A stretch of DNA of 35,545 bases. Origin: a virus. Numbering within the stretch: the stretch's first letter is position 1; every line of letters begins with the position of its first letter. Location of the stretch: the IMG/VR virus record IMGVR_UViG_3300036768_000965, positions 1 through 35,545 of that record. One strand, 5' to 3'. The notes beneath the pieces are model-generated. The model did not search any database, was not told the DNA's origin, and saw only the letters and a program-made list of their open reading frames with translations. Below are positions 16,778 through 35,545 of this stretch, piece after piece. A program made the translations under genes and the position numbers.

Positions 16778-16786
16778 TAGTACAAT

Positions 16787-16920
16787 AATTATGCTGGGGC
16801 TCTAAATTGATAATTTTATATTAAAATGCCAGCAAGCCTTTTATTTACAATAGTTTTGCAGGGGTGGTCTATTTTGCTTAACACTACTTAACATATGAAT
16901 TATAAGTTTTTATTAAATAT
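16787..16920 (-). repeat. Intergenic repeat block R3 (inverted, single hybrid core)
   Basis: This block has one core only (16829-16864). Its left flank (ATGCTGGGG, then TTAAAATGCCAGC) is that of the outer core of R2 and R4. Its right flank (GGGGTGGTCTATTTTGC) is that of the other core. The 127 bp that separate two cores elsewhere are missing. Positions 16829-16919 equal 12270-12360 exactly. It lies between divergent genes, so it is not needed there as a terminator. Confidence 0.9.
16878..16906 (+). promoter_or_regulatory. Promoter for the tail module with doubled TTAACA
   Basis: TTAACA at 16878-16883, a 17-bp spacer and TATAAG at 16901-16906, with a second TTAACA at 16888-16893. It is identical to the promoter before the fibre gene, so modules B and C should be co-regulated as late genes. 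The transcript would start about 60 nt before the sheath gene. Confidence 0.75.
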
Positions 16921-16970
16921 AAAAATTACTTATATTTATTAATATATTTATATATTAATGTGGAGGAAAC

Positions 16971-18302: not shown

Positions 18303-18317
18303 TAAGGGGTAAAAAAG

Positions 18318-18761: not shown

Positions 18762-18770
18762 GAGGTGAGT

Positions 18771-19112: not shown

Positions 19113-19306
19113 AAACTCCCCCGCCTTCTTGTATTGAAGAATGGGAGTTTCTAAAATATATGTTAATTGTAAATAAAATAGTTGGGCCGTTAGAATTTGA
19201 ACAATTAACTTATACAGAGATAATAAAAATAGCTAGCATGTATATATACCAAAAAGAGGTAGAGGTTGAGCTTATGGAACAATCTACAAAAGCAGGTAAA
19301 AAATAA
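19061..19306 (+). CDS. Tail assembly chaperone, frameshift extension
   Basis: This is the -1 frame part of the long chaperone form: about 79 codons added after the slip (IPILGTTRNGS, then EEWEFLKYMLIVNKI and a helical Glu/Lys-rich end). In other phages this 'T' segment binds the growing tube while the 'G' part binds the tape measure. An ATG at 19160 could also start a separate 48-residue product, but the frame is open well upstream of it and no good ribosome binding site precedes it. The stop overlaps the next ATG (TAATG). Confidence 0.65.
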   Translation, partial: FFIPILGTTRNGSHPQVKTPPPSCIEEWEFLKYMLIVNKIVGPLEFEQLTYTEIIKIASMYIYQKEVEVELMEQSTKAGKK

Positions 19307-19722
19307 TGATATTATCATATAGTATAAATGATGTGATAATTTTATGCAATAAGATACCAGTCATTTCATTTGCAGAAGATAGGAAAATAGAAATAGAGGC
19401 GGAGGCAGAATTTTATTCATATAAACAAGACGCCGCTGGCGATTATAATTTCATAGTACAAAATAACAATAAAAATTATAATATAAAAATACCATTATTA
19501 AAAGGCAGTCCCTCAAATATATTTTTCACTGAAAGGATGATGGGTAAGACATTTTTTGATATTATTTTGCTTCAGGCTAATTTAAAACTAGAATTTGCTA
19601 GTTTTTTTTATTCAAAAGCCTGCACAATTATAAAAGCTCCTGTTGTATTATATTCAAGAGAAGTACCTACTATTGAGTGGGAGATAAAAGCTTTCAATGG
19701 TGAATTTGTAGTAGGTAAATAA
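19306..19722 (+). CDS. Tube-like tail protein, paralogue 2
   Basis: A 138-residue protein with the same plan as the tube protein at 18318: RKIEIEAEAEFYSYKQDAAGD in the hairpin position, YNIKIPLLKGSPSN, and a closing VPTIEWEIKAFNGEF strand. It starts on the stop of the chaperone extension (TAATG). It lies on the tape-measure side of the chaperones, where a second tube-fold protein may cap or start the tube at baseplate or head. The role is inferred; homology is judged by eye from aligned patterns. Confidence 0.55.
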   Translation: MILSYSINDVIILCNKIPVISFAEDRKIEIEAEAEFYSYKQDAAGDYNFIVQNNNKNYNIKIPLLKGSPSNIFFTERMMGKTFFDIILLQANLKLEFASFFYSKACTIIKAPVVLYSREVPTIEWEIKAFNGEFVVGK

Positions 19723-19726
19723 GGAT

Positions 19727-20137
19727 ATGTATATATTTAACCCAGCGAATGTATCTATAATAATAGATAAAGATGAGTTAGAAGGTTTAGATAAGGAGGA
19801 ATTAATTAGAATAGAAACTGAGAACGATTTTTACGAGTATAAATACGGGGCAGGTGGGCAGAACTATATTAGAAAAAAAAGACAAAATGAAATCTATAAA
19901 ATAACATTATTTTTATTACCTTTTAGTAAAGGTAATAATTTATTATACAAATATTACAAAAAAGATTTGGACCAAAATAAAGGGAAATTTAGTATGGTAG
20001 TTTCTTACGAAAAAGAAACTTTTCTATTTGAAGATTGTAGTATTACTAAATATCCAACAATTACCTATAAAGGTGAAACATGGGTTAATGAATGGGTAAT
20101 CACCAGTCCTAATGTGGAGTTAAATAATGATAGTTAG
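19727..20137 (+). CDS. Tube-like tail protein, paralogue 3
   Basis: A 136-residue protein resembling the two preceding tube-fold proteins: LIRIETENDFYEYKYGAGGQ, IYKITLFLLPFSKGNN, a CSITKYPTITYKGETW strand and a closing VNEWVITSPNVE. AAGGA lies close before ATG 19727. Its end overlaps the tape measure start by 11 nt. It may be a tube initiator or terminator, or a connector between tube and baseplate hub. Confidence 0.5.
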   Translation: MYIFNPANVSIIIDKDELEGLDKEELIRIETENDFYEYKYGAGGQNYIRKKRQNEIYKITLFLLPFSKGNNLLYKYYKKDLDQNKGKFSMVVSYEKETFLFEDCSITKYPTITYKGETWVNEWVITSPNVELNNDS

Positions 20138-22496
20138 CGAATTACTTGCCCGACTTGGTTGGCAGGTTGATAATAGAGGACTAAATGAGTTCAGGAATAA
20201 TTTAAACAATCTTGCTAATCATACTAACAATATAGTATCAAAAATAAAATCACAGTTTGCTGGTCTAGGAACAGCAATAGCCAGTGTTTTTACAGTGTCT
20301 GGTATAAAAAATATGACTAAAGAGATAGCTTCTTTAGAGGACTTGTTCTTAAGGTTAAAAGCACTAACAAAAACAACAGACGCGGATTTTCAAAAGTTGA
20401 AAAATTCTGTATTAGAAAGTGCAAAAGTTACTTCTTTTACAACAGAAGAGGTTATTAGGGGTGCTATTTCACTTGCAACTGGTGGACTAAATGCGGAGCA
20501 AATAAAGAATGCAATTTTACCACTAACACAATTTTCAGAAGCAACAGGAAAAGTAATGCCGATGGGCGACTATGCGGAGCTTGTCGCTAATGTAATGAAC
20601 GCATGGGAAATGAAAAATGAAGAATTTTTCAAAGCCACAGACATTATGACAGCAGCGGTTAATAATGCTACATTAGACATAAAAGATTTTGCATACTCAA
20701 TGCGTTATATAGCTGGTATAAGTGCTGATATGGGGAAAGTGTCTTTAGAAGAGACAGCGGCGTTAATTTCTACCGTATCCACCATATCAAAAGGAACAAT
20801 GAGCGGAACAGCATTAGCACAGCTTGTTGGTCGTTTAGCTGCACCAAGCAAGGGAATGCTTGAACAATTTCAAAAAGTTGGTATAAACCCTTTTACAAAA
20901 GAAGGGTTTCTTAGACCTCTAAAAGAGTTGATTCCTGAAATATCAAAACAAATGCAAAAAAGTAAGAGCAGGCGAGAGATAGCTGATTTCTTTAGAAAAG
21001 AGTTTGGACAACCTGCTTTGGCTGAAGTGTTATACTTGTTTTCAAGACCACAAAAATTTCTTAATATGGTTAAGATTATAGAAAACTCACAAGGAACAAC
21101 AAGTACCACTGCATCTGCTTCTATTTCACCACTAACTAAAATGTTTAGTGCAATAGAAGTATCCACAACACAACTCAAATCAGCTATTATAGAACGATTA
21201 GAACCTGTTATTCTTAGATTAGGCGATGTTATTGTTGATCTCAGTAATAGTTTAACAACTTTAATAAAGAACTCTTCTACACCAACATTATTAGGAGGGT
21301 TTGGAACTACTATAGCAACAATGCTAGGTTTAATATTAGGTGTGAACATTCCTAATAGTGTTGAAAACGCATTTTTTAAAATGTCTGAATTGTTTTTTAA
21401 TAATTTTCTACCAAAAACCAGAAACATGTTTAGAAGCTTATTTAATTCTGGTTATCAAAGTTTAAACCCGTTTTCAAAATTAATAAATTTCTTTGATGAG
21501 GATTTTATTGATTTTTTAACACTTTCTAATGCTCCGCCCGCTGTAACTAAATTAGACAAAATAAAACAAGCTCTTAATAGGTTAAACCCTTTCTTTTTAT
21601 TAGGAAGAGAAAGAGCATACGCTTTTATAAATGCTTTATTAGAACTAGAAGTGCAAAGTGGGCGGGTAGTTGATAGTTTAGCAAATTTTAATATATTACC
21701 AAATATAGGTGAAAAACTTGGCAATATAGTAAATACTATAAAAAAATTCATACCAACACTAGGAGCTTTAACAGCAATAGTTTTATCCTTCTTTTTAGTA
21801 TTCGAGGATTGGTTTGTATTTTTACAAGGTGGTGATTCTTTTGTTGGTGTCGCCCTAGGTTTTGAAGAATTTAGAGATACTATATTGCTCCTTATAGGTA
21901 GTCTGGAGCAGGGTCTTGAAGACCTGAAATCTTTATGGGTAGGTATTCTTGCTGAGTTAGGAATATATACAAACGGGGAATGGAAAGATATTTTATTGAA
22001 AACATTTACAGCTATTTATATTGGTGTACTATTCCTAGCAAATGCTTTTATACCTATTGCTAAGATTATTCTTAGTCTTCTTTATTCTTTTATTAAAACC
22101 GTAAAATTCTTTTGGCCATATATAAAAAGTTTTATTGAGTGGATAGCTGAGAAGCTAGGAAAGTTATCAGTATCAATACCAAAAACCATTGAAAACATTG
22201 TAAATGATATTATCTGGTTAAGGAATGAAGTAATATTGTTTTGGAATAAACTAAAAGGATTCGCATCTTTTATTGGTGGTGGTTTAGCTGGTTCATGGCA
22301 ATGGTTAAAGGACATATTATCAGGAAAAGAAAAAATAGGATTAGATACGAAGCAATTAGCAATGGCTGGAATTAGTGCAGGTGCTACCAAGAATATAGTG
22401 CAAACAAATAATATTACAGTAAATACTTCAAGCACCCAGCCAAACGATATTGCCAAATCTATAAAAAATAATATTCCGAGGGAGTTTATTTTCTAA
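20127..22496 (+). CDS. Tape measure protein
   Basis: A 789-residue protein that sets tail length and is ejected ahead of the DNA. The N-terminal 350 residues match the TP901-type core: LEDLFLRLKALT, SFTTEEVIRGAISLATGG, TDIMTAAVNNATLDI and TISKGTMSGTALAQLVGRL. Hydrophobic segments follow at about 387-410, 546-562 and 625-660, as in tape measures that insert into the host membrane. By the common rule of about 1.5 angstrom per residue, a tail near 120 nm is expected. It overlaps the gene before by 11 nt and the next by one base (TAATG). Confidence 0.9.
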   Translation: MIVSELLARLGWQVDNRGLNEFRNNLNNLANHTNNIVSKIKSQFAGLGTAIASVFTVSGIKNMTKEIASLEDLFLRLKALTKTTDADFQKLKNSVLESAKVTSFTTEEVIRGAISLATGGLNAEQIKNAILPLTQFSEATGKVMPMGDYAELVANVMNAWEMKNEEFFKATDIMTAAVNNATLDIKDFAYSMRYIAGISADMGKVSLEETAALISTVSTISKGTMSGTALAQLVGRLAAPSKGMLEQFQKVGINPFTKEGFLRPLKELIPEISKQMQKSKSRREIADFFRKEFGQPALAEVLYLFSRPQKFLNMVKIIENSQGTTSTTASASISPLTKMFSAIEVSTTQLKSAIIERLEPVILRLGDVIVDLSNSLTTLIKNSSTPTLLGGFGTTIATMLGLILGVNIPNSVENAFFKMSELFFNNFLPKTRNMFRSLFNSGYQSLNPFSKLINFFDEDFIDFLTLSNAPPAVTKLDKIKQALNRLNPFFLLGRERAYAFINALLELEVQSGRVVDSLANFNILPNIGEKLGNIVNTIKKFIPTLGALTAIVLSFFLVFEDWFVFLQGGDSFVGVALGFEEFRDTILLLIGSLEQGLEDLKSLWVGILAELGIYTNGEWKDILLKTFTAIYIGVLFLANAFIPIAKIILSLLYSFIKTVKFFWPYIKSFIEWIAEKLGKLSVSIPKTIENIVNDIIWLRNEVILFWNKLKGFASFIGGGLAGSWQWLKDILSGKEKIGLDTKQLAMAGISAGATKNIVQTNNITVNTSSTQPNDIAKSIKNNIPREFIF

Positions 22497-23152
22497 TGGC
22501 TAAACGAACTTATATAGAATTAATAAAAGATAATGGTAAAGGGTCCAAGTTTGCTTTAACTAAAAATAATGAAGTAATAGTTAAAAATTTTTCCATTAAT
22601 TCAAGCACTAAAGTTCCTGAACACTCAACAGTAACAGGGTTTATAAATGATAGTTATATAAAACAACCAAAAGAAATATCAATAGATATTGAAATTACAA
22701 ACGAGGACCTGATATTTTCTCCTTTTAGTAAACAAAAAGCAAAAGATACAGCCAAGAATAAATACTTAGATTTTTTTGAAGGTTTATTATTTGAACCTGA
22801 TCCTGTTGCTTTATATCTAGGCGGGGTTACTTATGATAATTTACATTTAGAGAGTTATTCATTTTCAGAAGATGCTGATTTGAATTTAGAGTTTTCCTTA
22901 GTTTTTAAAGAAGTTTTTTTTGCATCTACAAAGAAAACAAAAAGTAAAAAAGTTCCAAACAATAATACAAAAAAACAACAGGCGGGTGGTTCAGCAAATA
23001 ATAAAACACAAAGTAGTGGTAATAATAACGGGGGAAATACAGGCAAAACAACAGGTTCAAAAGAGTGTGGTAAAGGAGAACAGAAAAGCAAAAAGGAAAC
23101 TAAAAAAAGTATATTAAAATCTTTAACTGATTTTCTAGGTTTAACAAAATGA
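22496..23152 (+). CDS. Baseplate protein after the tape measure (Dit-like), putative
   Basis: A 218-residue protein. Residues 1-145 are beta-rich (YIELIKDNGKGSKFALTKNNE, then KYLDFFEGLLFEPDPV and VTYDNLHLESYSFSED), resembling small hub or distal-tail proteins found directly after the tape measure in myophages. Residues 146-205 are a low-complexity Asn/Gly/Lys/Ser tract with one Cys, followed by a short helix. This tail could be a flexible tether. Gene order supports a baseplate role. Neighbouring genes overlap by 1-4 nt on both sides. Confidence 0.55.
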   Translation: MAKRTYIELIKDNGKGSKFALTKNNEVIVKNFSINSSTKVPEHSTVTGFINDSYIKQPKEISIDIEITNEDLIFSPFSKQKAKDTAKNKYLDFFEGLLFEPDPVALYLGGVTYDNLHLESYSFSEDADLNLEFSLVFKEVFFASTKKTKSKKVPNNNTKKQQAGGSANNKTQSSGNNNGGNTGKTTGSKECGKGEQKSKKETKKSILKSLTDFLGLTK

Positions 23153-23433
23153 TAGAAGTAAAACTATTAACTGATTATGACTTGAATAAAAATTATTTGT
23201 CCATAGAGGATAAGGAATTATATTTAAAAGTAATATCATTAACCAGGGGCGGATTTTTATTGGAGGTCTACGATATTGATAACTTATTAATTTTTTCTAC
23301 TAGAATAACAGAAGGAATAAATAAATTAGAGGATTTTAATCTATTAGGGTTAAATAACTATATTATATTAGTAGAAAAAAACGGAACTGCTTTAACTTTA
23401 TACTTTGCTACCAAACAGGAGCTTTTAGAATGA
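23149..23433 (+). CDS. Baseplate plug-like protein (DUF6983-like)
   Basis: A 94-residue all-beta protein between the Dit-like protein and the hub. Small proteins of this size and place include the Pam3 gp18-type plug that closes the tube above the spike (DUF6983). Visible are an early LLTDYDLNKNYLSIEDKE, then LYLKVISLTRGG, and a closing LTLYFATK strand. Start and stop overlap the neighbouring genes by four nucleotides each (ATGA). Identification is by position and size. Confidence 0.5.
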   Translation: MIEVKLLTDYDLNKNYLSIEDKELYLKVISLTRGGFLLEVYDIDNLLIFSTRITEGINKLEDFNLLGLNNYIILVEKNGTALTLYFATKQELLE

Positions 23434-24284
23434 TTTTAAAAGATCGGGTGCTAAAGGTATATATAAAAGATGTGTATTTAGAGGATTTCTATTATTCTTT
23501 TTCAGTATCAAAAGAAAATAATAATTCTAATCCTAGTAATGCTAATGTAATCATATTAGGATATGAAGACAAAATTAGTATTGGTGATGATGTTACTATC
23601 AAGGCGGGGTATTTAGAAGGTGAAGTTAGTACTATTTATCAAGGTAAAGTTGTAAAGAAATCTACAAAAGTAGCAAATAATGAAAGAACTGTAGCTTTAG
23701 AATTATCAGAAACATTAGAATTTACTCGTATAATAATAGAGCCTTTTAAAACAACAAAAGGGACACCCCTTAAGAGTATTGTAGAACAAATTATACAAAA
23801 AAGTGGATTAAAGCCAGGTAAGATATCTGTTCCAAACATAAATATAAATAAGAATTATACTATCTTTAAATATCCTTTAAAAACACTGAAAGAATTAGCA
23901 TTTTCATATGATTTTTACTTTAATATTGAAAAAGGAAAGGTAAATTGTTTTAAAAATCTAGGTGATGCTGTTGTGCTAAACCACAACAGTGGTTTATTAG
24001 CATATGAATTAATACAAGATATTACAAAGGTTCAAAAGCAACAAGAAGAACAAATTCGTAATCCTAAAAAGAAAATAACAAAAAATAGAGAATCAAAAGA
24101 AATAAAACCATCCCCGAACACTAATTATTTCAATGCTTCTTGTTTGTATATTCCAGATATTTCGTTAGCAAAACAAGTAAAATTAGAGCCTGAAAATCTT
24201 TTTGGTATTATAGAAAAACTAAGTATAGATTTGAGTAATTATGATGATACTTGGACCATGAATATAGAGGCGAGGGTAATATGA
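23430..24284 (+). CDS. Baseplate hub protein (gpD/gp44-like)
   Basis: A 284-residue hub protein of the Mu gp44 / P2 gpD / T4 gp27 type, forming the trimer between tube and spike. Residues 1-95 form beta strands with EDKISIGDDVTIKAGY. Residues 110-180 carry the typical TPLKSIVEQIIQKSGL and YPLKTLKELAFSYDFYFNIEKGKVN segments. The C-terminus returns to beta strands (FGIIEKLSIDLSNYDDTWTM). It overlaps its neighbours by 4 nt each, and the spike gene follows, as in related phages. Confidence 0.75.
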   Translation: MILKDRVLKVYIKDVYLEDFYYSFSVSKENNNSNPSNANVIILGYEDKISIGDDVTIKAGYLEGEVSTIYQGKVVKKSTKVANNERTVALELSETLEFTRIIIEPFKTTKGTPLKSIVEQIIQKSGLKPGKISVPNININKNYTIFKYPLKTLKELAFSYDFYFNIEKGKVNCFKNLGDAVVLNHNSGLLAYELIQDITKVQKQQEEQIRNPKKKITKNRESKEIKPSPNTNYFNASCLYIPDISLAKQVKLEPENLFGIIEKLSIDLSNYDDTWTMNIEARVI

Positions 24285-24955
24285 ATTTTGATGATGTTTT
24301 AGATTATACTTTATCAAGTATATACTTATCATTACCAGGAAAAATCTTAAAAATAGATGATAAAAACTTTTGTGAAATACAACTTTTGTATGGAATACCT
24401 TTTGTAGAAAAGACGGGTAATATAGATTTTCAATTAGCACCTGTTATTGAAAATGTTCCTTTATTGTATATAGGTAACAAGGAATATTTTATTAACATTC
24501 CTTCTAAAAAGGGCGACCTCGTAACAGTGTTTTTTACAAACAAAGATTTGTATGAGTATTATCAGAGCGACGGGGAGGACGCTTATGCTCCAAACCTTAT
24601 CAATGCAAATGATCTTAACAACTGTTTTGCATTACCTATAACTTTAAATAAAGGAGCGTCCCCTACATTTATTAATGATACTTTTAGTATTGAAAAAAGG
24701 AATGGTAATGTAAAATTATATGTAGGAAAAGATGATGAGGTCCAAGTAAAAGCGGATAAGGTGCGATTAGGAGAATTGAATGCAAGCGAGCCCCTTGCAT
24801 TAGCAAACCTTGTAAAACAAATGTTAGATGGCATTACAACAGCATTTAATTCACATACACATATTGCTACTTCTTTAGGTAGTCCAACAACACCGCCTGC
24901 GACACCTATAACACAAAGTAATCAAGTAAAAAGTAATAAAGTATATGGAGTATAA
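24281..24955 (+). CDS. Baseplate spike (gp138/gpV-like)
   Basis: A 224-residue spike. An N-terminal OB-like domain (PGKILKIDDKNFCEIQLLYGI, then KKGDLVTVFFTNKDL) is followed by a beta helix and a C-terminal SHTH motif with H192-x-H194. Spikes of the P2 gpV and phi92 gp138 group hold an iron ion at the tip with such HxH residues. I choose ATG 24281, which overlaps the hub stop (ATGA) behind GAGGG; the longer reading from 24251 has no ribosome binding site. The spike punctures the outer barrier of the host. Confidence 0.75.
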   Translation: MNFDDVLDYTLSSIYLSLPGKILKIDDKNFCEIQLLYGIPFVEKTGNIDFQLAPVIENVPLLYIGNKEYFINIPSKKGDLVTVFFTNKDLYEYYQSDGEDAYAPNLINANDLNNCFALPITLNKGASPTFINDTFSIEKRNGNVKLYVGKDDEVQVKADKVRLGELNASEPLALANLVKQMLDGITTAFNSHTHIATSLGSPTTPPATPITQSNQVKSNKVYGV

Positions 24956-24958
24956 AAT

Positions 24959-25306
24959 ATGCATTGGAAACTAGATAACACACACGATTTGATTGTTCCT
25001 TTAAGGGCGGTAGAAAAAGAAGAGGAACTAGCTCAAAGAATAAAGGTGGCACTGCTAACATATTATAATGAGTGGTTTGATAATAGAAATCTTGGTGTTG
25101 ATTACATAAATACAATTTTTCGTAGATACCCTGATTTGAACGGTTTAGCAAATGAAATTCGTAGAGTATTAAGTGGTTTTGAAGAAATTAGGAGGATAAT
25201 AAATATAAATATAGAAAAAGTTGGCATTACTTATAATATAAATATACTAATAGAAAGTATATATAATGAAAATCAATATATAAACATATTATTTGGAGAA
25301 GTATAA
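24959..25306 (+). CDS. Baseplate wedge protein, gp25/gpW-like
   Basis: A 115-residue protein of the T4 gp25 / P2 gpW family, which joins the sheath to the baseplate wedge. Key pieces are LIVPLRAVEKEEELAQRIKVALLTYYNEWFDNRNLGVDY near the start, the RYPDLNGLANEIRRVL helix and the closing INILIESIYNENQ strand. GGAG lies 8 nt before ATG 24959. The next gene starts on its stop (TAATG). Spike, gp25 and gpJ in this order is the usual baseplate arrangement. Confidence 0.8.
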   Translation: MHWKLDNTHDLIVPLRAVEKEEELAQRIKVALLTYYNEWFDNRNLGVDYINTIFRRYPDLNGLANEIRRVLSGFEEIRRIININIEKVGITYNINILIESIYNENQYINILFGEV

Positions 25307-26484
25307 TGACGGGTTTAACAAATAGCGGTTTTATAATAAAAACCTCCGACCAGATATTTTCTGAAATGCTTACAGAAGCTCGTAGTTACTGGGGTGATAC
25401 TTTTGCACAAAATCAAAGTTCTATAGAATATATAGAATATGCTAATCGTGCAAATGCCTTGGGGTTATTGTGGGAACAGCTTGCGTTGGTGTATAATTCT
25501 TTATTTCCTGATACTGCAGAGGGGATCTCTTTAGACAGGGCTTGTTCTCTTGTTGGTATAAGTAGAATAAAAGGTAAAAAAAGTATCGTTAGGAATGTAG
25601 ATTTGGTAAATAGTAATTCTAGTCCAATTACATTACCAGCGGGCACGAAAGCACTACAAAGTTCTACAAATATTATATGGGAACTAATAAACAATGTAGT
25701 TATCCCCGCTAACGGCACCGCCCAGGGAGATTTTATTTGTAGTATAGAGGGGGAATATTACTGTCCAATTGGTAGTTTAAATACTACTATTGATATTATT
25801 CCAGGATGGGCGTCTATTTCAAATACTCAAGATGTGTTAATAAACGACCTCGGCAGGTTTAAAGAAACCGATGCGGAGTTGAGGTTACGAAGAGAACGTT
25901 TTATTAACAAGCCTGGAACTGCTAGCGGACTAGCAATTTGTAATAAAATACTAGAAGAAGTTCCTAATACAATATATGCTAATTATAGAGAAAATAGAAC
26001 TGATACCACTGATAGTAACGGGTTACCTTCGCATAGTATAGAAATATTTGTATTAGGTGGAGTTCCACTAGACATAGCAAAAACTATCTTTAAATACTCC
26101 CCCGCAGGAATTCAAACACACGGAAGCTCGTCTAATATAGTAACAGACGAGTTTGGTAATTCTTTTGTAATTAAACACTCTTCTTTAATACAAAAAAATA
26201 TTTATTTCAGAATAGAAATAGATACTAATACTTTATGGATGCCCTCTTATGAAATAGAATTAAAGAATATAATAATAGATTATGTAAATAATAAACATCC
26301 TTTTAATTCTACTTTGTATAATTGGAAGTATTATACTTTATTAGACACTCTTATTGGTGTGGATAATATACAAATATTTCAAGGTTTTAGTAGCAACCCG
26401 ACTGTTCCAAACACAAATTTAACAACTTCTGTTTATGAAAAACCTTATACTACACCTAGTTTTTTTACAATTGTATATGTGTAG
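25306..26484 (+). CDS. Baseplate wedge protein J-like
   Basis: A 392-residue member of the baseplate J family (T4 gp6 / P2 gpJ). The N-terminus has SDQIFSEMLTEARSYWG, then LFPDTAEGISLDRACSLVGISR. Strands with ITLPAGTKALQSS, GEYYCPIGSLNTTIDIIPGW and ETDAELRLRRERFINKPGTA follow; the last is the family hallmark. These proteins form the ring of wedges around the hub. It is complete and directly coupled to the gp25-like gene. Confidence 0.85.
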   Translation: MTGLTNSGFIIKTSDQIFSEMLTEARSYWGDTFAQNQSSIEYIEYANRANALGLLWEQLALVYNSLFPDTAEGISLDRACSLVGISRIKGKKSIVRNVDLVNSNSSPITLPAGTKALQSSTNIIWELINNVVIPANGTAQGDFICSIEGEYYCPIGSLNTTIDIIPGWASISNTQDVLINDLGRFKETDAELRLRRERFINKPGTASGLAICNKILEEVPNTIYANYRENRTDTTDSNGLPSHSIEIFVLGGVPLDIAKTIFKYSPAGIQTHGSSSNIVTDEFGNSFVIKHSSLIQKNIYFRIEIDTNTLWMPSYEIELKNIIIDYVNNKHPFNSTLYNWKYYTLLDTLIGVDNIQIFQGFSSNPTVPNTNLTTSVYEKPYTTPSFFTIVYV

Positions 26485-26491
26485 GTAGAAT

Positions 26492-27031
26492 ATGAATTAC
26501 GAGCAAGAACTAAAAAATAAACAACTTTCTCAATTTAAAGAAGCCCCCTCTTTTAACAAGTGGTTAGAAATATATGCAAAACAACTTCAAGACATTGAAG
26601 ATGCGGGGCAGTCTATAATAGACCATTTACATTTAGCAGATGTCGGCGGAGTAGTTCTAGATAGGTTTGGTTATATATTAGGAACACCAAAAAGAACAGT
26701 TGGCATGAATGATAATACATACAGGGGGTTAAATTATGGGCAAATTTTATTGAATATTTATCAGGGTACTAGACAGGAACTATTACAATTCTTTAAACTT
26801 TTAGGTGCTACTAGTGTAATCTATAAAGAATATTATCCAGCAAAAGTAGAAATACAATACAATAACATTAGCCCAGCGGTATTATCCCCTACAACAATAA
26901 AAAATATGTTAATAAAAGCAACTCATCCTATAGGATGGGAAATTTCTTATTTTACAGACGCCCCTTTTGTATTTGAGGGCGATAGTACAGGCTTTGGTTT
27001 TGATGTTGGAGAATTAGGAACAAACTATTAA
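26492..27031 (+). CDS. Baseplate wedge/tail protein I-like (DUF2612-like)
   Basis: A 179-residue protein after J, the place of P2 gpI and of the DUF2612 family. The pattern VGGVVLDRFGYILGTPKRTVGMNDNTYRGLNY followed by ILLNIYQGTRQELLQFFKLLGA is typical. Such proteins link the wedge to the fibres. It is the last gene of module C. The tail fibre genes that usually follow are here in module B, about 10 kb upstream. Block R4 begins just after the stop. Confidence 0.75.
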   Translation: MNYEQELKNKQLSQFKEAPSFNKWLEIYAKQLQDIEDAGQSIIDHLHLADVGGVVLDRFGYILGTPKRTVGMNDNTYRGLNYGQILLNIYQGTRQELLQFFKLLGATSVIYKEYYPAKVEIQYNNISPAVLSPTTIKNMLIKATHPIGWEISYFTDAPFVFEGDSTGFGFDVGELGTNY

Positions 27032-27043
27032 ATAAATTGTTAC

Positions 27044-27268
27044 GAACTGTTAAGCAAAATAGACCACCCCTGCAAAACTATTGTGAATAGGCGTCTTGCA
27101 GGGTGCCTGTTTTTCACTAAAATTTTTAATACATTATAAAAATTTTCTAAAAAATAAAATTTTCTTTATTCAATTTTCTTATTTTTAAAAATACCCCTGC
27201 AAAACTATTGTAAATAAAAGGCTTGCTGGCATTTTTAGTATAAAATTAATACCCCAGCATAATTATTG
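27044..27268 (+). repeat. Intergenic repeat block R4 (two cores)
   Basis: A complete block in + orientation with cores at 27067-27102 and 27194-27229, 127 bp apart. It is the reverse complement of R2 with a few differences. The first core is the most symmetrical copy: CCCTGCAA pairs with TTGCAGGG, and CTATT pairs with AATAG inside the loop. It is followed by GCCTGTTTTT, so it could terminate module C transcription. The TTAACA motif on the left flank, read on the minus strand, has decayed to TTAACA-N4-GTAACA. Confidence 0.92.
27065..27117 (+). terminator. Possible rho-independent terminator within R4
   Basis: CACCCCTGCAA and TTGCAGGGTG form a stem with one bulged C and an inner CTATT/AATAG stem, followed by CCTGTTTTT. 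It lies about 35 nt after the last baseplate gene. The loop is long for a simple terminator, and related cores occur where no terminator is needed, so termination may be a side effect. Confidence 0.4.
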
Positions 27269-27294
27269 TTAAATATATTATTAGTAATTATTAA
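27266..27294 (+). promoter_or_regulatory. Candidate promoter for the head module
   Basis: TTGTTA at 27266-27271 and TATTAA at 27289-27294 with a 17-bp spacer, about 14 nt before the first head gene. Matches are weak (four or five of six). It lies just outside R4 on its second-core flank, the place where R3 carries the minus-strand promoter. Confidence 0.35.
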
Positions 27295-27307
27295 TTAATA
27301 TAGAATT

Positions 27308-28201
27308 ATGAAATACTTTACTGATAAAATAGATATTGAAATTCCTGAGAGTTGGGTTATCCTTGATAATGGCTCAATAGAAATACCTGCTAAATTTACC
27401 AGGTATGGAGTTTTTGAATATTCTTTTGGAAATGTATTAAGACCGCCCGAGGAAGTCTTTAAAAAAGAAAGTTTAGATAGTATTTTATACAAACCTTTAA
27501 CTATAGACCACCCAAATGAAGCAGTAACTATTGATAACTGGGGGGAATTAACAAAAGGTATAATAAAGGATGCTTTTATAGATGGCGACCTTATTCGTGG
27601 CACTCTTTTAGTGTGGGATAAAAATACCATAGAAATTCTAAAAACAAAAAAGCAATTATCAATGGGATATTTTGCTGATTATGTAGAAGAACCAGGTGTG
27701 TTTAATAATATTAAATATGATTACAAACAAAAAAATATAAAATATAATCATGTATCAGTAGTGGAACAAGCTCGTGCTGGTGCTGATATTACTGTAGATA
27801 GTTTAGAAAAAAAGGAGGATAAAGTGTCTGAAAATAAAGAAAAAGAATTTACTATAGACAAATACGAAGCAAAAATTCAAGTTCTTGAAAAGAGAATAGA
27901 AGAACTAACAACTGACAAAAAAGAATTAGAAGCAGCACTTGAAAAATATCAAGTTTCTGAATTAAAACAAAAAATAGAAAAATTAGGTATGAGTTTTTCT
28001 TTAGATGGTAAAGATGCTCAGTCTATAAAAAGAGAAGTTGTTAATAAATTTTTATCCTTAGACAGTAATAAAATATATTCTAAAGAATTTATAGACGGGG
28101 CGTTTGATAGTATAATAGAACTTCAAAACAAAAAAATAGTAAACTCTTTAGACAAAGCAACCTCTAATCAAGAAGTAGAGGTTATAGATATTAAAATATA
28201 A
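27308..28201 (+). CDS. Prohead protease fused to scaffold (DUF2213-like)
   Basis: A 297-residue protein. Residues 1-165 resemble the DUF2213 phage protease fold: LTIDHP with H68, GIIKDAFIDGDLIRGTLLV, LSMGYFADY, and YNHVSVVEQARAG with H148 and S150. Residues 173-297 are charged helices and coiled coil (KIQVLEKRIEELTTDKKELEAAL), a scaffold-type tail. An in-frame GTG at 27824 (codon 173) lies 5 nt after a perfect AAAGGAGG, so a 125-residue scaffold alone is probably made as well, like lambda C/Nu3. The main start ATG 27308 has little ribosome binding site. It heads module D. Confidence 0.75.
   Translation: MKYFTDKIDIEIPESWVILDNGSIEIPAKFTRYGVFEYSFGNVLRPPEEVFKKESLDSILYKPLTIDHPNEAVTIDNWGELTKGIIKDAFIDGDLIRGTLLVWDKNTIEILKTKKQLSMGYFADYVEEPGVFNNIKYDYKQKNIKYNHVSVVEQARAGADITVDSLEKKEDKVSENKEKEFTIDKYEAKIQVLEKRIEELTTDKKELEAALEKYQVSELKQKIEKLGMSFSLDGKDAQSIKREVVNKFLSLDSNKIYSKEFIDGAFDSIIELQNKKIVNSLDKATSNQEVEVIDIKI
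27811..27826 (+). promoter_or_regulatory. Internal ribosome binding site and GTG start for scaffold
   Basis: AAAGGAGG at 27811-27818, then ATAAA, then GTG at 27824-27826, in frame with the protease-scaffold gene. This is a better translation signal than that of the full-length start. It falls exactly at the junction between the protease and the coiled-coil part and predicts a separate 125-residue scaffold product. Confidence 0.7.
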
Positions 28202-28211
28202 GGAGAATTAG

Positions 28212-28931
28212 ATGAGCGTTCAAAATCAGTATAATTTAACCATGCAAGGTGCAACTGCTGGGGTAGTAGAAAAGCACCTTTATTCAAAATCTTTTCCTGC
28301 GAATGATAATTTAGAGTTTGGTAGATTTGTAAGAATTAGAAATAATGGAACTATTGCTCCCGCAGGGGCGGATGTTATTAGAACTACTTCTAATATTACT
28401 AGTGGAACTATTACTTTAACAATAGTGAAAAAGAATTTAGAAACTGGTAGTTCTTCTACAAATAACCTTACTGTTCCTTTTGCAACTGATAATAATACTA
28501 CTTATGCAAACCTTTCTACCGCTATTAGTGGTTTAGGAGATGTCAATGCAACAGTAATCAGTGAAAGTGGTAATAGTAGGGGTATTTCTTTAGAACCTGT
28601 GGGCGATTTTGAATTTTATATTACAGCACTAAGCATGCCAGTAAATTATACTATTGATTACAATAGATTGGGCGGGGTTTTAGTGTATAAAAACAACGAA
28701 GCGGGCGTTCTAAAAAGAACTGAAAGCGGAGAAGTGTTATTACAAGGGGTTATAGCAGTATCAAGTGTAGATAGTGATATTAACTATAATGATAATCTAT
28801 ACATAATAGGTATTGGTGCAATAGACGATTTGGGTAAAATAACAAAAATAAAAAATCCTGAAAATTATTTATTAGGTAAAAATTTAATAGATAATAACAA
28901 CGGAATAGCAATTATTAAGGTAAATGTATAA
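28212..28931 (+). CDS. Head cement/decoration protein 1
   Basis: A 239-residue beta-rich protein between protease/scaffold and major capsid, where capsid-stabilising cement proteins are coded. The N-terminus MSVQNQYNLT and the framework FGRFVRIRNNG, then LLQGVIAVSS, are shared with the next gene. Residues about 56-150 form an inserted domain (LTVPFATDNNTTYANLSTAIS) like those in the next gene and the sheath. AAGGAG lies upstream of ATG 28212. It probably coats the outer capsid surface. Confidence 0.65.
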   Translation: MSVQNQYNLTMQGATAGVVEKHLYSKSFPANDNLEFGRFVRIRNNGTIAPAGADVIRTTSNITSGTITLTIVKKNLETGSSSTNNLTVPFATDNNTTYANLSTAISGLGDVNATVISESGNSRGISLEPVGDFEFYITALSMPVNYTIDYNRLGGVLVYKNNEAGVLKRTESGEVLLQGVIAVSSVDSDINYNDNLYIIGIGAIDDLGKITKIKNPENYLLGKNLIDNNNGIAIIKVNV

Positions 28932-29698
28932 TGAGTGTTCAAAGTTCATATAATTTAACACCCGAGGAATTAGTAAGCGGGCAAGCTCTTACAAGAGAAA
29001 GTTCGCTTACATTCATTGCTGGGCAAAGAATTCTCGCTGGTAGAATTGTTAGAATAAGCGATACTAATTTCAAAAAGGTAGTTCCTGTAGCAAACAATGT
29101 TTTTAGAGTAATATCTACTTTAACCGCTTCACAAACAATAACATTAAGAATAGCAAAACTAGAAAATGAAATAACAGACTATTATAATTTTACAATACCT
29201 TTTAACAGTTCGCATACAACAACAATGAACAACCTCAAAAATGCTATTGAAACTACTGTTCCTAATTGTTCAGTAACTTTATTGAGTTTAGGTTCTACAA
29301 TTCCAAACCATGCATTAATTTCAACTACAAACGATGATGCTTTTATATGGTTGGCGGATGCTGATGTTAGTGGTGGGGGCTGGGTTTTAAATATGAGCTG
29401 GGCGACCACCTCACGTTTTATTGGTCTCGGGGTTGCTATGTATAAAAATGGCATGCCCCCTGTTAGAGAAAAAGGCGATACTGTAGAAATATTAATTGAT
29501 GGTATAATAACCGTACCAACAGTGCAATCTAGTTCAGTTCCGCTAGACGCTAATACTTATTATATGGGTGGCGGGGATGATTACGAGCAACTTGGAAAGA
29601 TTAGTTTTGTTCAGAATAAAGATAGTAATGTTGCAGTTTCAAATTTTAGACCAGTATCGGGTATTTTTAATTCAAAATGTTTATTTAATATGTGGTAA
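28931..29698 (+). CDS. Head cement/decoration protein 2 (paralogue)
   Basis: A 255-residue paralogue of the preceding protein, starting on its stop (TAATG). Shared are MSVQSSYNLT, AGRIVRISDTN, the inserted domain at about 58-160 (FTIPFNSSHTTTMNNLKNAIE) and the closing ILIDGIITVPTV strand. A duplication that has since diverged explains the pair. They may occupy different positions on the capsid or form mixed trimers. Confidence 0.65.
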   Translation: MSVQSSYNLTPEELVSGQALTRESSLTFIAGQRILAGRIVRISDTNFKKVVPVANNVFRVISTLTASQTITLRIAKLENEITDYYNFTIPFNSSHTTTMNNLKNAIETTVPNCSVTLLSLGSTIPNHALISTTNDDAFIWLADADVSGGGWVLNMSWATTSRFIGLGVAMYKNGMPPVREKGDTVEILIDGIITVPTVQSSSVPLDANTYYMGGGDDYEQLGKISFVQNKDSNVAVSNFRPVSGIFNSKCLFNMW

Positions 29699-29713
29699 AA
29701 TATTGGAGGGTAA

Positions 29714-30691
29714 ATGAAAAAAAGAATAGAATTAACACAGGACGCTAAGGATTTTTATAGTGGTGCTATAAACTTCATAAATGACTTGCTTACTAAAGAT
29801 GAGCAGGACACTTTTTTCCTTGTAAAAGAATTGAACTTGCTTAGAAATGTAGCAAAGGAAGTTAAGTATGAAAACTTGATAGCAAGAAATTTATTTCCTT
29901 TTGTAAGCGGGCTTGGTGCGGGTTTGGAAACAATATCATATGAAATATACGATATGCAAGGAAAGGCAGGTTACATAGAGGGTGCAAGTGATATTCCAAA
30001 AGTTAATGCTACTAGAAAAGAAAATAAAGAAAATGTTAGGACCATAGCTAGTTCTTATAGCATTAACATGTTTGAAATGGAAAGAGCATTAAGAACGGGC
30101 AGGAATTTAGAACAAAGAAAACTTTTAACCGCATTAAGAGTATTAGAAAATGAATTAGATAAGGTAGCATTCTACGGGGATAAGGAACACGGGTTAAATG
30201 GTTTGTTATCAAAGCCGTCTAATCTTGAAGTAGTAACAATAGTAGCAGACGGTTCGGGTTCTTCTAAAAAATGGGTTACAAAAACCGCCGATAAAATAGA
30301 AAGAGACATCAACGATATGTTAAGAAAAATACCAGACGAGTTTATGAATATGCCATTAACCTTGTTATTATCGCCTACCAACTATATGCTTTTAAACACA
30401 ATAAGAATAAACAATACTTCAACTTCTTTAAGAGAGTATATACTTCAAAATACTGATATTTCTAGAATAGAAAAAACAAGTAAGTTAAAGAGTGTTCCTA
30501 CAATGAGCAATAAAGAGGTCGGCGTGCTTTTTGTAAATAGTTCTGAAGTTTTAGAACTTGTTGTTCCAAGAGACAGGGAGCAAAGAGCACCATTTAGAGA
30601 AGGCAGGGAGCTTGTTACTGATGTTGTTATGGATATTAGTGGCTTGCACCTCTACCATCCGAAGAGTATCATAGTAACCGACGAAATCTAA
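29714..30691 (+). CDS. Major capsid protein (DUF2184-like)
   Basis: A 325-residue shell protein of the DUF2184/HK97-fold group. Typical parts are an N-arm with FFLVKELNLLRNVAKEVKYENLIARNLFPF, then YEIYDMQGKAGYI, a long RTIASSYSINMFEMERA helix with REN-type E-loop surroundings, DKVAFYGDKEHGLNGLL, and a late IDTLLLSPTNY-like strand. The end, MDISGLHLYHPKSI, matches the capsid closing strand. GGAGGG lies before ATG 29714. A perfect cluster of scaffold, cement and capsid genes supports the call. Confidence 0.85.
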   Translation: MKKRIELTQDAKDFYSGAINFINDLLTKDEQDTFFLVKELNLLRNVAKEVKYENLIARNLFPFVSGLGAGLETISYEIYDMQGKAGYIEGASDIPKVNATRKENKENVRTIASSYSINMFEMERALRTGRNLEQRKLLTALRVLENELDKVAFYGDKEHGLNGLLSKPSNLEVVTIVADGSGSSKKWVTKTADKIERDINDMLRKIPDEFMNMPLTLLLSPTNYMLLNTIRINNTSTSLREYILQNTDISRIEKTSKLKSVPTMSNKEVGVLFVNSSEVLELVVPRDREQRAPFREGRELVTDVVMDISGLHLYHPKSIIVTDEI

Positions 30692-30697
30692 TGTTCT

Positions 30698-31045
30698 ATG
30701 AACAAAAAAACAGAAATATTGAATTTCTTAGGTTCTCTAAATGCTAATTTCTTAACACACCCTTCTGTAAATTCATTGGTGGATATGGAAATGAATATCC
30801 ACAAGGAAACTTTTTTAAAAAATTTGTATGTTCCCGCGGTTGCTTATATAGTTGCACACAAATTAACTTTATTGAATATAGCATCTAGCGGGGCGTCGGG
30901 GTTAATAACAAAAGAAAAATTAGGAGACCAGGAAATACAATATGGAAACAACAGCGGGGCTTCTAAAGATAATACATTCAATACTTTTTATTATCAAGAG
31001 TATAAAAGATTGGTATCTAGTCTAATTGGTAATTTCAATGCCTAG
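30698..31045 (+). CDS. Head-tail adaptor (DUF4054-like)
   Basis: A 115-residue helical protein directly after the capsid gene, in the place of head completion adaptors (DUF4054; HK97 gp6-like). FLTHPSVNSLVDMEMNIHKETF, then VPAVAYIVAHKLTLL and the closing TFYYQEYKRLVSSL helix match the family layout. The adaptor ring binds under the portal. ATG 30698 is in frame; an ATG at 30691 opens only an 18-codon frame. The last nucleotides overlap the next gene. Confidence 0.65.
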   Translation: MNKKTEILNFLGSLNANFLTHPSVNSLVDMEMNIHKETFLKNLYVPAVAYIVAHKLTLLNIASSGASGLITKEKLGDQEIQYGNNSGASKDNTFNTFYYQEYKRLVSSLIGNFNA

Positions 31046-31472
31046 AAATCAAAATATTGTATTAAATACTAGAGTGTTGGACCAAATAAGAAATAATTTA
31101 AACACTTTTGATAATAAATATATAGTAGTAGGTTTGTTAGGAACGGCTGGTTCTGAAATAGTTATGCGGGGCGTATATACTGAGTTTGGAACTAGTAAAA
31201 TGCCAGCATGGAGGTGGTTAAAAAGAAGTGTTGATAGGATGACCCCTACCTACAAAAATTATGCTTTTACTTTAATTAGAAATATACTAAATAACCGCCC
31301 ACCTAATTACGATATAATTGGTTTGTGGGCAAAATCACAAGTTCAAACATTTTTAGCAGAAGTAAGAACGCCCAGGTTATCGTGGGCTACCATTCAAAAG
31401 AAAAAAAGCGACAAACCTCTTATAGACACGGGGCAGATGAGAATGTCTATAAGTTATGAAGTGAGGGGATAA
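31038..31472 (+). CDS. Neck/tail completion protein (HK97 gp10-like), putative
   Basis: A 144-residue protein with VLDQIRNNLNTFDNKYIVVGLLG near the start, then YTEFGTSKMPAWRWLKRSVDR and IDTGQMRMSISYEVRG at the end. The EFGT, PAWRWL and DTGQMRMSI elements are characteristic of the HK97 gp10-like neck family. I choose ATG 31038 over a TTG four codons earlier. Overlap with the adaptor gene before is 8 nt; the next gene begins on its stop (TAATG). Confidence 0.7.
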   Translation: MPRNQNIVLNTRVLDQIRNNLNTFDNKYIVVGLLGTAGSEIVMRGVYTEFGTSKMPAWRWLKRSVDRMTPTYKNYAFTLIRNILNNRPPNYDIIGLWAKSQVQTFLAEVRTPRLSWATIQKKKSDKPLIDTGQMRMSISYEVRG

Positions 31473-31828
31473 TGGTTAATACAAATTTTCTACAAGAAGA
31501 TACTATTACAATTAGTAGGGTAGTCAGCGGTGGTAATTATGATAGTAACGGCATATGGATACCTGAGACTAGAAATACTTTACAAATTCAAGGATGCGTG
31601 CAACCTTTAGAAATGTTTGTAATAGACAGGGCGGGGAATAAAAGATTACAAAAGAAAGGATGTCTAGTAGTATATTCAGAACAGGAACTTCAAGTAGCAA
31701 GTGAAAATAATACCGCCGACATTGTTATATTTCAAGGAAAAGAGTATGAAGTAATAGAAAAAAGTTGGTGGGAAGGGGTTACGATGAGTTTTTGGAAGTA
31801 TCAATGTGAGTTGCTAAACAATGTATGA
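31472..31828 (+). CDS. Head closure protein, putative
   Basis: A 118-residue beta-rich protein between the gp10-like and terminator-like genes, where head closure or stopper proteins are coded. Visible are DTITISRVVSGGNYDSNGIW, GCVQPLEMF and FQGKEYEVIEKSWWEG, as in small beta-barrel stopper proteins. The start overlaps the preceding stop; GAGGGG is upstream. Function is assigned by order and fold impression. Confidence 0.55.
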   Translation: MVNTNFLQEDTITISRVVSGGNYDSNGIWIPETRNTLQIQGCVQPLEMFVIDRAGNKRLQKKGCLVVYSEQELQVASENNTADIVIFQGKEYEVIEKSWWEGVTMSFWKYQCELLNNV

Positions 31829-32456
31829 AATTACAAAAGATTTGAATTTTTGTATAAGAGAATGGTTATCCAATTCTTTAGGTATTTCTAAAGAAAAAAT
31901 AATTATTGCTAATCAGAATAAAAAACTCCCCGCCCCGCCTTTTATATGGTTACACTTGGTAACTAATATTGAAAGGCTTGGGTGGGATATTGTAGAATAT
32001 ACGAACGATAATAAAGAAAAAAGAGTAAATATATTCAAAGTAAATAGTAGTATAGAATTTATAGGGTTTGATATTCTTAGCAATCCTGTTATAAAAGCAA
32101 TAAATGAATTAGAGTATTATTCTGATATTTTTCATAGTAAAAATATAGGGGTAATTAGGGATAGTTTAAATTTATTGAATATTCCTAATTATTTTGAAGA
32201 AACCAACGAAATTACTAAACATATTTTAGATATTTCATTTTACATAAATGGAGAAGTTGAAAAAGAATTTATTCCTACACAAAGAATTAGATACGAAATA
32301 GAAACTCAAAATACAAACGGTAATGCGGGCGATTTTCCTATTGTAAATGTAGAAATAAAAACTTTTCCAAACATAACTACAATACCTACAATAACTAATG
32401 TTATTATAAATATAACAAATATAACATCTAGCGGGGCTACCATAACATGTATATAG
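31821..32456 (+). CDS. Neck/tail terminator (LIC_12616-like) with partial FN3 tail
   Basis: A 211-residue protein. Residues 1-165 resemble the LIC_12616/gp12 neck family (PAPPFIWLHLVTNIERLGWDIVEY, a SSIEFIGFDI strand, ILDISFYINGEVE). The final 45 residues are an extension: a Thr/Pro/Ile linker and PTITNVIINITNITSSGATIT, which looks like the first two strands of a fibronectin type III domain. The rest of that domain begins in the overlapping gene in the -1 frame. The stop (TAG 32454) lies inside that gene. Either the domain was split by a frame change or the two proteins complement each other. Confidence 0.65.
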   Translation: MYEITKDLNFCIREWLSNSLGISKEKIIIANQNKKLPAPPFIWLHLVTNIERLGWDIVEYTNDNKEKRVNIFKVNSSIEFIGFDILSNPVIKAINELEYYSDIFHSKNIGVIRDSLNLLNIPNYFEETNEITKHILDISFYINGEVEKEFIPTQRIRYEIETQNTNGNAGDFPIVNVEIKTFPNITTIPTITNVIINITNITSSGATITCI

Positions 32457-33496
32457 AATTAGATGTTGCCTTGGATAATAATTTTACTAATTATGTATAT
32501 AGAAGAGTGTTATTACAAAGCGGGCAACCTTTTGTTTTATCAGAATTACAAGAGAACACCACTTATTATGTAAGGGCGAGAAGAGTAGAAAATAATCAAT
32601 TTTCAGAATATACTTATGATAGTTTTACTACTAGTGCTACTCCAACGCTTAGTGGTTATGTGTTTAATATTTCTACTTCCCCTAGATTATTATTTTACCA
32701 CGAAGCCCCGATTACTTATAGTAATTATAAAAGGTTTTTGGATAATAACAATAGAGAAGAAAGAGATTTTTCATACAACCCTATTAAAAAGCAGGGCGTT
32801 TTTCTAAGAAAGTTTGGTATTAGTTCAGTTTATACTTTTGAACCTTTTATATTTGATTTTAATACTATGGTGGAAAGTAGAGTAAATTCTGAATATGATT
32901 ATTATCCTTTATTAGTGAGCGTGCCAGCAATTTATACCTATCCGTGGGCATGTCCTTTTATAATAGACGACGATGTTTATATGTTAAACACGCATTCTAA
33001 TAGTAGTCTAGCGGGGTTTTGGAAAGTGAATTTAACCTCAAAAATATACACAAAAGTAAATAATATTACCTTTTTAAGTTCCGCACCATACGAAGCAATG
33101 GACTATGATTATGATAGTGAATATTTTTATTTTTCAGAAGGTAATAATATATATAGAATTAATAAAAATAATATGACTACCAGCCCGCAGGTTTTAATAA
33201 CCGCAGGAACAGACCATATAAGGGGCGTCTGTTATTCTAAAAGTGATAATAAAATATATTATAGTCGTTTAGTTGGTGGTTATCACAAACTACACAGAGC
33301 CAATCCTGATGGCAGTAATCAAGAGCTTTTAGATAATGCTAATTGGACTGTTTTAGTATTAAGGGATAATAGTTTTTATAATGTTAGAAGAGACGCTTAT
33401 ACAATGGGAATATCCCCTAAAGAACTGCACGATATTAACGCCCAAATCTTTTGGAATAATCAAGAAATAAGGTATCATGATAAGGTAGGAGACTAG
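32447..33496 (+). CDS. FN3 remainder plus beta-propeller-like protein
   Basis: A 349-residue protein. Residues 1-67 are the later strands of a fibronectin III domain (ELDVALDNNFTNYVY, LSELQENTTYYVRARRV, closing DSFTT). Residues 70-349 are beta-rich with YWTD/NHL-like repeats (for example DNKIYYSRLVGGYHKLHRANPDGS). ATG 32447 lies 10 nt inside the previous gene, in the -1 frame, open from 32432. It lacks an initial FN3 strand, which is present at the end of the previous gene. It could be a neck or head fibre that binds host surface sugars or proteins. Confidence 0.6.
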   Translation: MYIELDVALDNNFTNYVYRRVLLQSGQPFVLSELQENTTYYVRARRVENNQFSEYTYDSFTTSATPTLSGYVFNISTSPRLLFYHEAPITYSNYKRFLDNNNREERDFSYNPIKKQGVFLRKFGISSVYTFEPFIFDFNTMVESRVNSEYDYYPLLVSVPAIYTYPWACPFIIDDDVYMLNTHSNSSLAGFWKVNLTSKIYTKVNNITFLSSAPYEAMDYDYDSEYFYFSEGNNIYRINKNNMTTSPQVLITAGTDHIRGVCYSKSDNKIYYSRLVGGYHKLHRANPDGSNQELLDNANWTVLVLRDNSFYNVRRDAYTMGISPKELHDINAQIFWNNQEIRYHDKVGD

Positions 33497-33497: not shown

Positions 33498-34490
33498 ATG
33501 CCATTACCTTTAACAATTCCTAATTACACACTAAGCGGGTTAAATGTAACCGACCCCATGTTATTACTTTATACAAGGCACTCTTCAGATGCTTTGAGTG
33601 GTCAGAGTTTTGCTTGTTTTTATGATAGTGACAATCTAAAATTATTTGATAATTATTTACTTAGAACTGATTTTAATAAAGGAACAGAAGTTCATTATCA
33701 GTATTTAAACTGGGGGGATAATTATTTATTATTCAAAAGAAATTATTCTAGTAATACAAAGCATCAACTTTATGTTTATAATGTTACTGATAAAAGTGTT
33801 ACACAACTAATAGACGATTTTTCTACAAGTTATGATAGCCCCGCGATAGTAGAAACGGGCGGGCAGGTATATATTTTCTATACTAAAGAAGATAGTAAAA
33901 TTTATAAAAAACAGTGTATATTGGATAGTAGTAATAAAATAATTGGAACATACGGGGCGGAGACTATAATTTATAATGCTGGTAGTGCATATATTGGACC
34001 ATTAATTTATGATAAAATAAATAATAGAATATTATTTACTCCGCAGGTAGCAAACACTGGGAGCATACAGTCAATAAATATAACTAATGACACTGTAACT
34101 AGTGTTATTAATTCAAACGCCTTGTTTGGTTATCCAAGCCCCGATGGCACGAAGATATGTTTTTTAAGAAATAATAATGGTTATTTGAATATTCATATAG
34201 CAGACGCGGACGGGGCAAACATTGTAGCAAAAACATTCTTTTTAGAACATTTAAATAGGTTCCTAATAGGTAGTCCTTATTCTAATTTTCCACCAATATG
34301 GTTAAATGAAAATAGTATAATATTTACACTTCATTATGGAGTAGCTATTGATGGCGTAAGTAGTATCAATATATGTAGGTTAAATTTACAAACAAATAGT
34401 GTTGAAATTTGTAATGATTTTAATAGTCGTTTTGGTTCGGATAGGGTAGTAATGTTTTTTAATGCAATAAAAGGAAATATTATGCTATAA
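33498..34490 (+). CDS. Beta-propeller (PD40/TolB-like) protein
   Basis: A 330-residue all-beta protein with repeating blades such as DNYLLFKRNYSSNTKHQLYVYN, then GYPSPDGTKICFLRNNNGYLNIHIADADGAN, which is a clear PD40/TolB-type blade. Five to seven blades fit the length. It begins one nucleotide after the preceding stop behind GGAGAC and may be a distant paralogue of the propeller part of its neighbour. Its place at the end of the head-neck module suggests a virion decoration or host-binding protein. Confidence 0.6.
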   Translation: MPLPLTIPNYTLSGLNVTDPMLLLYTRHSSDALSGQSFACFYDSDNLKLFDNYLLRTDFNKGTEVHYQYLNWGDNYLLFKRNYSSNTKHQLYVYNVTDKSVTQLIDDFSTSYDSPAIVETGGQVYIFYTKEDSKIYKKQCILDSSNKIIGTYGAETIIYNAGSAYIGPLIYDKINNRILFTPQVANTGSIQSINITNDTVTSVINSNALFGYPSPDGTKICFLRNNNGYLNIHIADADGANIVAKTFFLEHLNRFLIGSPYSNFPPIWLNENSIIFTLHYGVAIDGVSSINICRLNLQTNSVEICNDFNSRFGSDRVVMFFNAIKGNIML

Positions 34491-35308: not shown

Positions 35309-35339
35309 TATGAACGCCCGCTTTTATTAATTGTTAATG

Positions 35340-35545
35340 AATGTTAAGCAAAATAGACCACCCCTGCAAAACTATTGTGAATAGGCGTCTTGCTGGGTGC
35401 TTGTTTTTCACTAAATTTTTTAATACATTATAAAATTTTTCTAAAAAATAAAATTTTCTTTATTCAACTTTCTTATTTTTAAAAACACCCCTGCAAAACT
35501 ATTGTAAATAGGCGTCTTGCTGGCATTTTTAGTATAAAATTAATA
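35340..35545 (+). repeat. Intergenic repeat block R5 (two cores, to window end)
   Basis: A block in + orientation with cores at 35361-35396 and 35488-35523, again 127 bp apart. Both cores carry the loop variant GGCGTC, unlike the AAAGGC loop of R1, R2 and R3. Read on the minus strand, its left flank holds TTAACA-N4-TTAACA, as in R2 and R3. The block runs into the window edge. Positions 35431-35545 resemble 1-115. Confidence 0.92.

Follow-up and report, generated by a model that had tools for sequence, protein, structure and literature searches.

An incomplete fibronectin type III domain behind a phage neck gene: a possible product of gene fission

Genes and start signals at the neck junction

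The window analysed here is the whole of IMG/VR virus record IMGVR_UViG_3300036768_000965, a contig of 35,545 bases whose gene content is that of a contractile-tailed phage. Genes for the sheath, tail tube, tape measure and baseplate J are followed in the window by those for the major capsid protein, the head-tail connector and the neck, the sheath, tube, tape and baseplate genes preceding the head genes within 16971-31828. Because the tail genes come before the head genes, the neck genes run into propeller-like genes, whereas in FP_Brigit the neck gene is followed by a sheath gene with no propeller in between. The neck protein matches PF23961 (Phage_tail_terminator_9) over residues 11-160 with an E value of 6.7e-4 and 19.8 bits, which is below the curated cut-off of 27 bits. 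The position of its gene after the capsid gene agrees with FP_Brigit, and the protein aligns with the Tc1 proteins of relatives at 14-18% identity. The features of the junction are collected in Table 1.

Table 1. Features at the junction of the neck gene and the genes that follow it (window coordinates)
Feature	Position	Strand	Description and basis
Neck / tail-terminator (Tc1-like) gene	31821..32456	+	211 aa; PF23961, gene order, Tc1 alignment
Neck-protein tail, read as FN3 strands A and B (candidate)	32376..32450	+	Sequence TTIPTITNVIINITNITSSGATITC; PSSM, register and half-profile tests
CGGGG, Shine-Dalgarno-like site of the downstream gene	32432..32436	+	Duplex energy -5.5 kcal/mol with the anti-Shine-Dalgarno
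Stretch open in both frames	32432..32456	+	Read as a break in the FN3 B-C loop
Downstream (second) gene	32447..33496	+	349 aa; truncated FN3 (residues 1-62) and probable beta-propeller
FN3 strands C to G (predicted)	32447..32632	+	Profile match and VIA-align to 2rbl
Next (third) gene	33498..34490	+	330 aa; possible second propeller, weak PD40 match

The neck gene closes with a TAG at 32454-32456 and the second gene opens with an ATG at 32447 in frame -1; the frame of the second gene contains a TAG at 32429-32431 and is open from 32432, and a GGGG run occupies 32433-32436. An earlier sequence-only reading had described two frames that differ by -1, are both open only at 32432-32456 and lack a classic slippery heptamer, and the ORF coordinates and codon pairs agree with that description: inspection by eye of the neck-frame codon pairs in this stretch revealed no heptamer of the form X XXY YYZ. 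The start-stop overlap of 10 bases is ordinary here, other genes overlapping by 8, 8, 11 and 13 bases.

The start signals of the second gene are ordinary as well. Its Shine-Dalgarno is of median strength, 17 of the 34 other listed starts being stronger, and its ATG lies within 10 nt of the neck stop, a distance that extracts of PMC3711429 give as a sign of translational coupling. The RNA folding of 32430-32540 is nothing unusual, with a z value of -0.72 and 44 of 200 shuffles as stable. The unusual recoding that had been offered as one explanation of the locus has no support, for want of a slippery site and of any but ordinary downstream structure; a coupled gene pair that makes two proteins is the likelier reading.

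Other features of the window lie apart from this junction. A tandem paralogous pair (28212-28931 and 28931-29698; 31% identity, E 1e-18) is found immediately 5' of the major capsid gene, and two small ORFs in different frames overlap by 50 bases at 7620-8376; Pfam gave no match for either member of the pair or for either small ORF. The genome has about 30% G+C, and words made of G and C only are strongly over-represented, for example at 30888, 30954, 31166 and 32431; over the whole window GCGGGG was observed 40 times against 2 expected, GGCGGGG 21 against 0.4 and GCGGGGC 13 against 0.4. An intergenic repeat element is present between gene modules in both orientations (1-143, 12101-12350, 16785-16957, 27015-27271 and 35309-35545), with a 37-base core that occurs twice, 127 bases apart, in two of the copies examined; an exact-pattern search of viral contigs did not recover this repeat.

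An FN3 domain that begins at strand C

The start of the second gene had been read as FN3-like, and both profile and structure comparisons bear this out. An FN3 subtype profile matched residues 4-56 of the second protein at model positions 19-71 of 75, with 29 bits and E values of 2.7e-8 to 4e-8 among more than 2000 ORFs from the window and related loci, and it matched no other ORF of the window. The subtype profiles were seeded on an FN3-rich Persicobacter protein, which had been reached via a weak tblastn match, and in three rounds they gave 33, 21 and 19 bits on the isolated piece of the second protein. Earlier FN3 profiles (19-locus and 73-domain) detected only the E-F motif, at 7-8 bits; the first of these drew on 19 loci out of 37 with FN3, the remaining 18 having been left out for the stops they contained as extracted. 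The motif L..L...T.Y.V.A/R of strands C to G is present at the N-terminus in both profile and structure alignments. In Pfam, PF00041 (fn3) did not match the second protein, and two related sandwich families, Ig_7 (E 0.0034) and Pur_ac_phosph_N (E 0.18), stayed below their cut-offs.

A single-sequence AlphaFold2 model of the second protein has a mean pLDDT of 39.5 and is confident only at residues 1-60, with strands at 2-8, 16-23, 39-48 and 51-61. VIA-align superposed its residues 1-62 on numerous FN3 structures, in most cases at 1.5-2.4 A, with middling Z values of 5-6.6; the match to 2rbl (Z 6.6, 1.9 A over 60 residues) starts at residue 831 of that structure, and the anastellin structure 1q38 is also among the matches. 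Foldseek alone gave no match for this model at E 0.001 or better.

The match that starts at profile position 19, together with complete FN3 structures that align only from about residue 29-30 onward (3b83 from 29, for example), implies that strands A and B are absent from the second protein. In its own frame a stop ends 15 bases 5' of the ATG. As read from the profile match and the predicted model, the second protein carries FN3 strands C to G but lacks A, B and the loop that joins B to C; the incompleteness suspected from the sequence is thereby upheld. A complete FN3 within the second protein alone, named beforehand as one result that would speak against a split domain, was searched for and not found.

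The remainder of the second protein probably forms a beta-propeller. A DUF5050 match over residues 215-311 (E 1.2e-5) reaches 25.2 bits, under the curated cut-off of 27, hence the propeller is called only probable, and this part of the protein yielded no usable structure model. The FN3 profile searches gave no match for the protein of the third gene.

The neck-protein tail and the position of the break

The best candidate for the missing strands is the tail of the neck protein. Its end (…TNITSSGATITC) resembles, on modest evidence, strands A and B in the expected register, as judged with an ungapped strand A-B PSSM made from 92 FN3 segments that end at the conserved Trp. With 25 columns, the register of the neck tail ranks 8th among 10019 window positions (shuffle p 0.00045); with shorter column choices it ranks 111th (20 columns) and 34th (15 columns) of 10019. 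For all four column choices the best of 18 registers is the one that aligns the final Cys with the conserved Trp column, which thereby falls on the last residue but one of the neck protein, adjoining the break. A gapped half-profile gave the tail a score that was equalled or beaten by 27 of 4943 chunks and by 134 of 2000 shuffles. A Pfam search of the tail gave no match, and taken alone it was recognised as FN3 neither by Pfam nor by any FN3 profile used. Structure prediction gave a poor model for the neck protein (mean pLDDT 37), with low-confidence strands at residues 196-202 and 205-210 in its tail. The sequence-only reading had taken this end as the first strands of an FN3 domain; the register ranks speak for it, while the missing Pfam match and the shuffles that score as well do not.

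Tail length was compared among 18 tail-completion (Tc1) ORFs, that of FP_Brigit included. In 13 of these 18 a pattern search detected a conserved F..V.I-like motif close to the C-terminus, followed by 5-16 residues; beyond this motif the neck protein of the window has 32 or 23 residues, depending on the alignment. Its tail is longer than in most of the relatives' Tc1 proteins, one of which (L014) also has a long tail, unrelated to this one. The tail-completion ORFs L002, L004, L005, L007, L009, L018, L020, L021 and L028 share a C-terminal SGG(G) followed by GYF.NVEI or similar, a pattern that sits a few residues from the C-terminus in the tail-completion proteins of related phages. Judged by sequence comparison, the longer tail and the A-B-like register lend moderate support to strands A and B on the neck tail, and are suggestive of an A-B hairpin that would belong to the same FN3 as the strands of the second protein.

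With regard to the exact point of the break, codon usage speaks for the neck frame as far as 32447, where five of its codons give +3.3 bits and four codons in the other frame -0.6, and for the second frame past that position. In the best strand-B register the conserved Trp position coincides with the TGT codon at 32448-32450, 3' of the G run, and the registers required by a switch within the run score lower. A pure read-through would leave a Trp-to-Tyr spacing of 1. Among 100 FN3 domains, 6 of them unmeasured, the spacing is 8 in 43 of the 94 measured and at least 5 in 90, with a spacing of 1 in three domains and of 3 in one; the read-through is thus about seven residues short in the B-C loop. 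Since it leaves one residue where typical domains have 8, the break looks like a loss within the B-C loop, of 3n+1 bases with n about 7, as far as sequence registers allow such a reading. The sequence-only reading had proposed a recent one-base change in the GGGG run, which fits worse than a break in the loop: the best strand-B register places its Trp position beyond the run, and codon usage speaks for the neck frame up to 32447. A one-base change there would, in addition, discard strand B.

Eight frame-switch read-throughs did not usefully extend the match of the subtype profiles into the neck tail, the largest extension being 6 residues and 1.2 bits with one of three profiles at one switch point. 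Such an absence of gain is expected if the loop and the Trp are lost, yet it offers no positive evidence.

Relatives were sought in several ways. With the neck, second and third proteins as queries, tblastn against phages gave none, and single-protein scans of viral contigs with the same three found no relative. In 398 genomes of one phylum, the neck protein (E 7.5e-4) and the second protein (E 7.8e-4) obtained one borderline match each, which is about the level of chance. A phmmer search with these three proteins in 25 capsid-related loci (19 viral and 6 from bacterial genomes) and two phage records matched only the window's own copy. As no relatives were found, conservation of either a fused or a split arrangement cannot be demonstrated, and an isolated mutation or an error of the contig stays a real possibility.

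Origin of the arrangement and comparison with known systems

What the analysis establishes at this locus is the course of the two frames, the truncation of the FN3 in the second protein and a start with ordinary signals. We tentatively favour, as the best explanation, that a neck-FN3-propeller fusion gene was split into two coupled genes by loss of the B-C loop. The ancestor would have been a neck tail-terminator gene in frame with FN3 and propeller, encoding a single virion protein; it is hypothetical, no fused relative having been found. A short loss of 3n+1 bases, about 22, inside the FN3 B-C loop would have cut this gene, and the neck protein would since then have terminated after strands A and B, with strands C to G and the propeller being read from the ATG at the break. 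Translation of the second gene would putatively rely on its own GGGG Shine-Dalgarno and on re-initiation at the 10-base start-stop overlap, and both halves may still be made and be present in the virion. A break inside an FN3 domain with a working start at that very place would represent a snapshot of gene fission.

Rather doubtful is the possibility that illegitimate recombination placed a 5'-truncated FN3-propeller gene, now the second gene, behind the neck gene, in which case the neck tail would be unrelated and would only resemble strands A and B. The tail is FN3 in no model, the gain from read-through is near nil, the half-profile score is reached by shuffles as stated above, and the sheath that follows the neck gene in FP_Brigit would make the propellers an insertion or rearrangement. 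On the other hand, the best register of the tail is exactly the expected one, with the shuffle p given above for the 25-column profile, and the tail exceeds most of the relatives' in length.

It is also conceivable, by analogy with fibronectin fragments and though on balance unlikely, that the FN3 is completed in trans, the A-B hairpin of the neck protein inserting into the C-G half of the second protein and anchoring the propeller to the neck. This functional reading is compatible with fission. According to extracts of two reports, anastellin, an FN3 without strands A and B, swaps strands with the A and B of another FN3 (PMC9772232; PMC2671840), and its structure is among the matches of the second protein; moreover, the break sits in a loop with every strand intact, and neighbouring coupled genes would supply matched amounts. 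Against this stand the weak FN3 likeness of the neck tail and the possibility that the tail is a by-product of recent breakage. If true, each neck subunit would hold a propeller arm through split-domain complementation.

That the junction reflects an error in sequencing or assembly, or else a minority variant, in a virus population that encodes a single fused protein, appears quite unlikely. There is one contig and no near relative for comparison, and singleton frame breaks are, in extracts of PMC3711429, probably indels or sequencing errors; nevertheless, a one-base error in the G run puts the best-scoring strand B out of frame, the expected loss of about 22 bases is untypical of read errors, and the downstream gene has ordinary start signals. 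Very improbable is programmed frameshifting, by which some ribosomes would yield a neck-FN3-propeller protein of about 558 residues similar to FN3 extensions elsewhere in phage tails: phages do add FN3/Ig-like domains in this way, as extracts describe for SPP1 gp17.1 (PMC8718954) and several others (PMC5009743), but the overlap has no slippery heptamer and folds ordinarily, the product would be without a B-C loop, and the known cases, so far as the extracts go, describe the extension as a domain behind the shift.

Returning to the favoured fission of a fused gene, a limited literature search found no phage FN3 split between two chains. Coupled pairs as defined by GeneTack likewise have a start at most 10 nt from the upstream stop, here with a median-strength Shine-Dalgarno; that class rests, in the extracts of PMC3711429, on conservation across homologues, whereas here there is one sequence. 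As the extracted reports show for anastellin, a folded FN3 fragment may lack A and B, and foreign A-B strands can pair with it (PMC9772232; PMC2671840). The FN3 of the second protein similarly begins at strand C, without A and B, but anastellin is a recombinant fibronectin fragment, whereas here the truncation is phage-encoded and the candidate A-B strands are specified by the adjacent gene. Should the halves still assemble, they would constitute a natural split-domain dock resembling the strand exchange of that recombinant fragment.

FN3/Ig-like domains behind frameshifts are described, in extracts, for SPP1 gp17.1, T3, A118 and PSA (PMC8718954; PMC5009743), and such domains have been suggested to move by non-homologous recombination (reported in PMC5009743). 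As in those extensions, so far as the extracts describe them, a beta-sandwich domain is tied here to a structural protein across a frame change; unlike them, the present locus has no slippery site and its downstream frame has a start of its own. Structural proteins of phages are already known to gain FN3/Ig-like domains, in some cases over a shift of frame, and where the domain in those systems lies behind the frameshift site, the change in this phage falls inside the domain itself.
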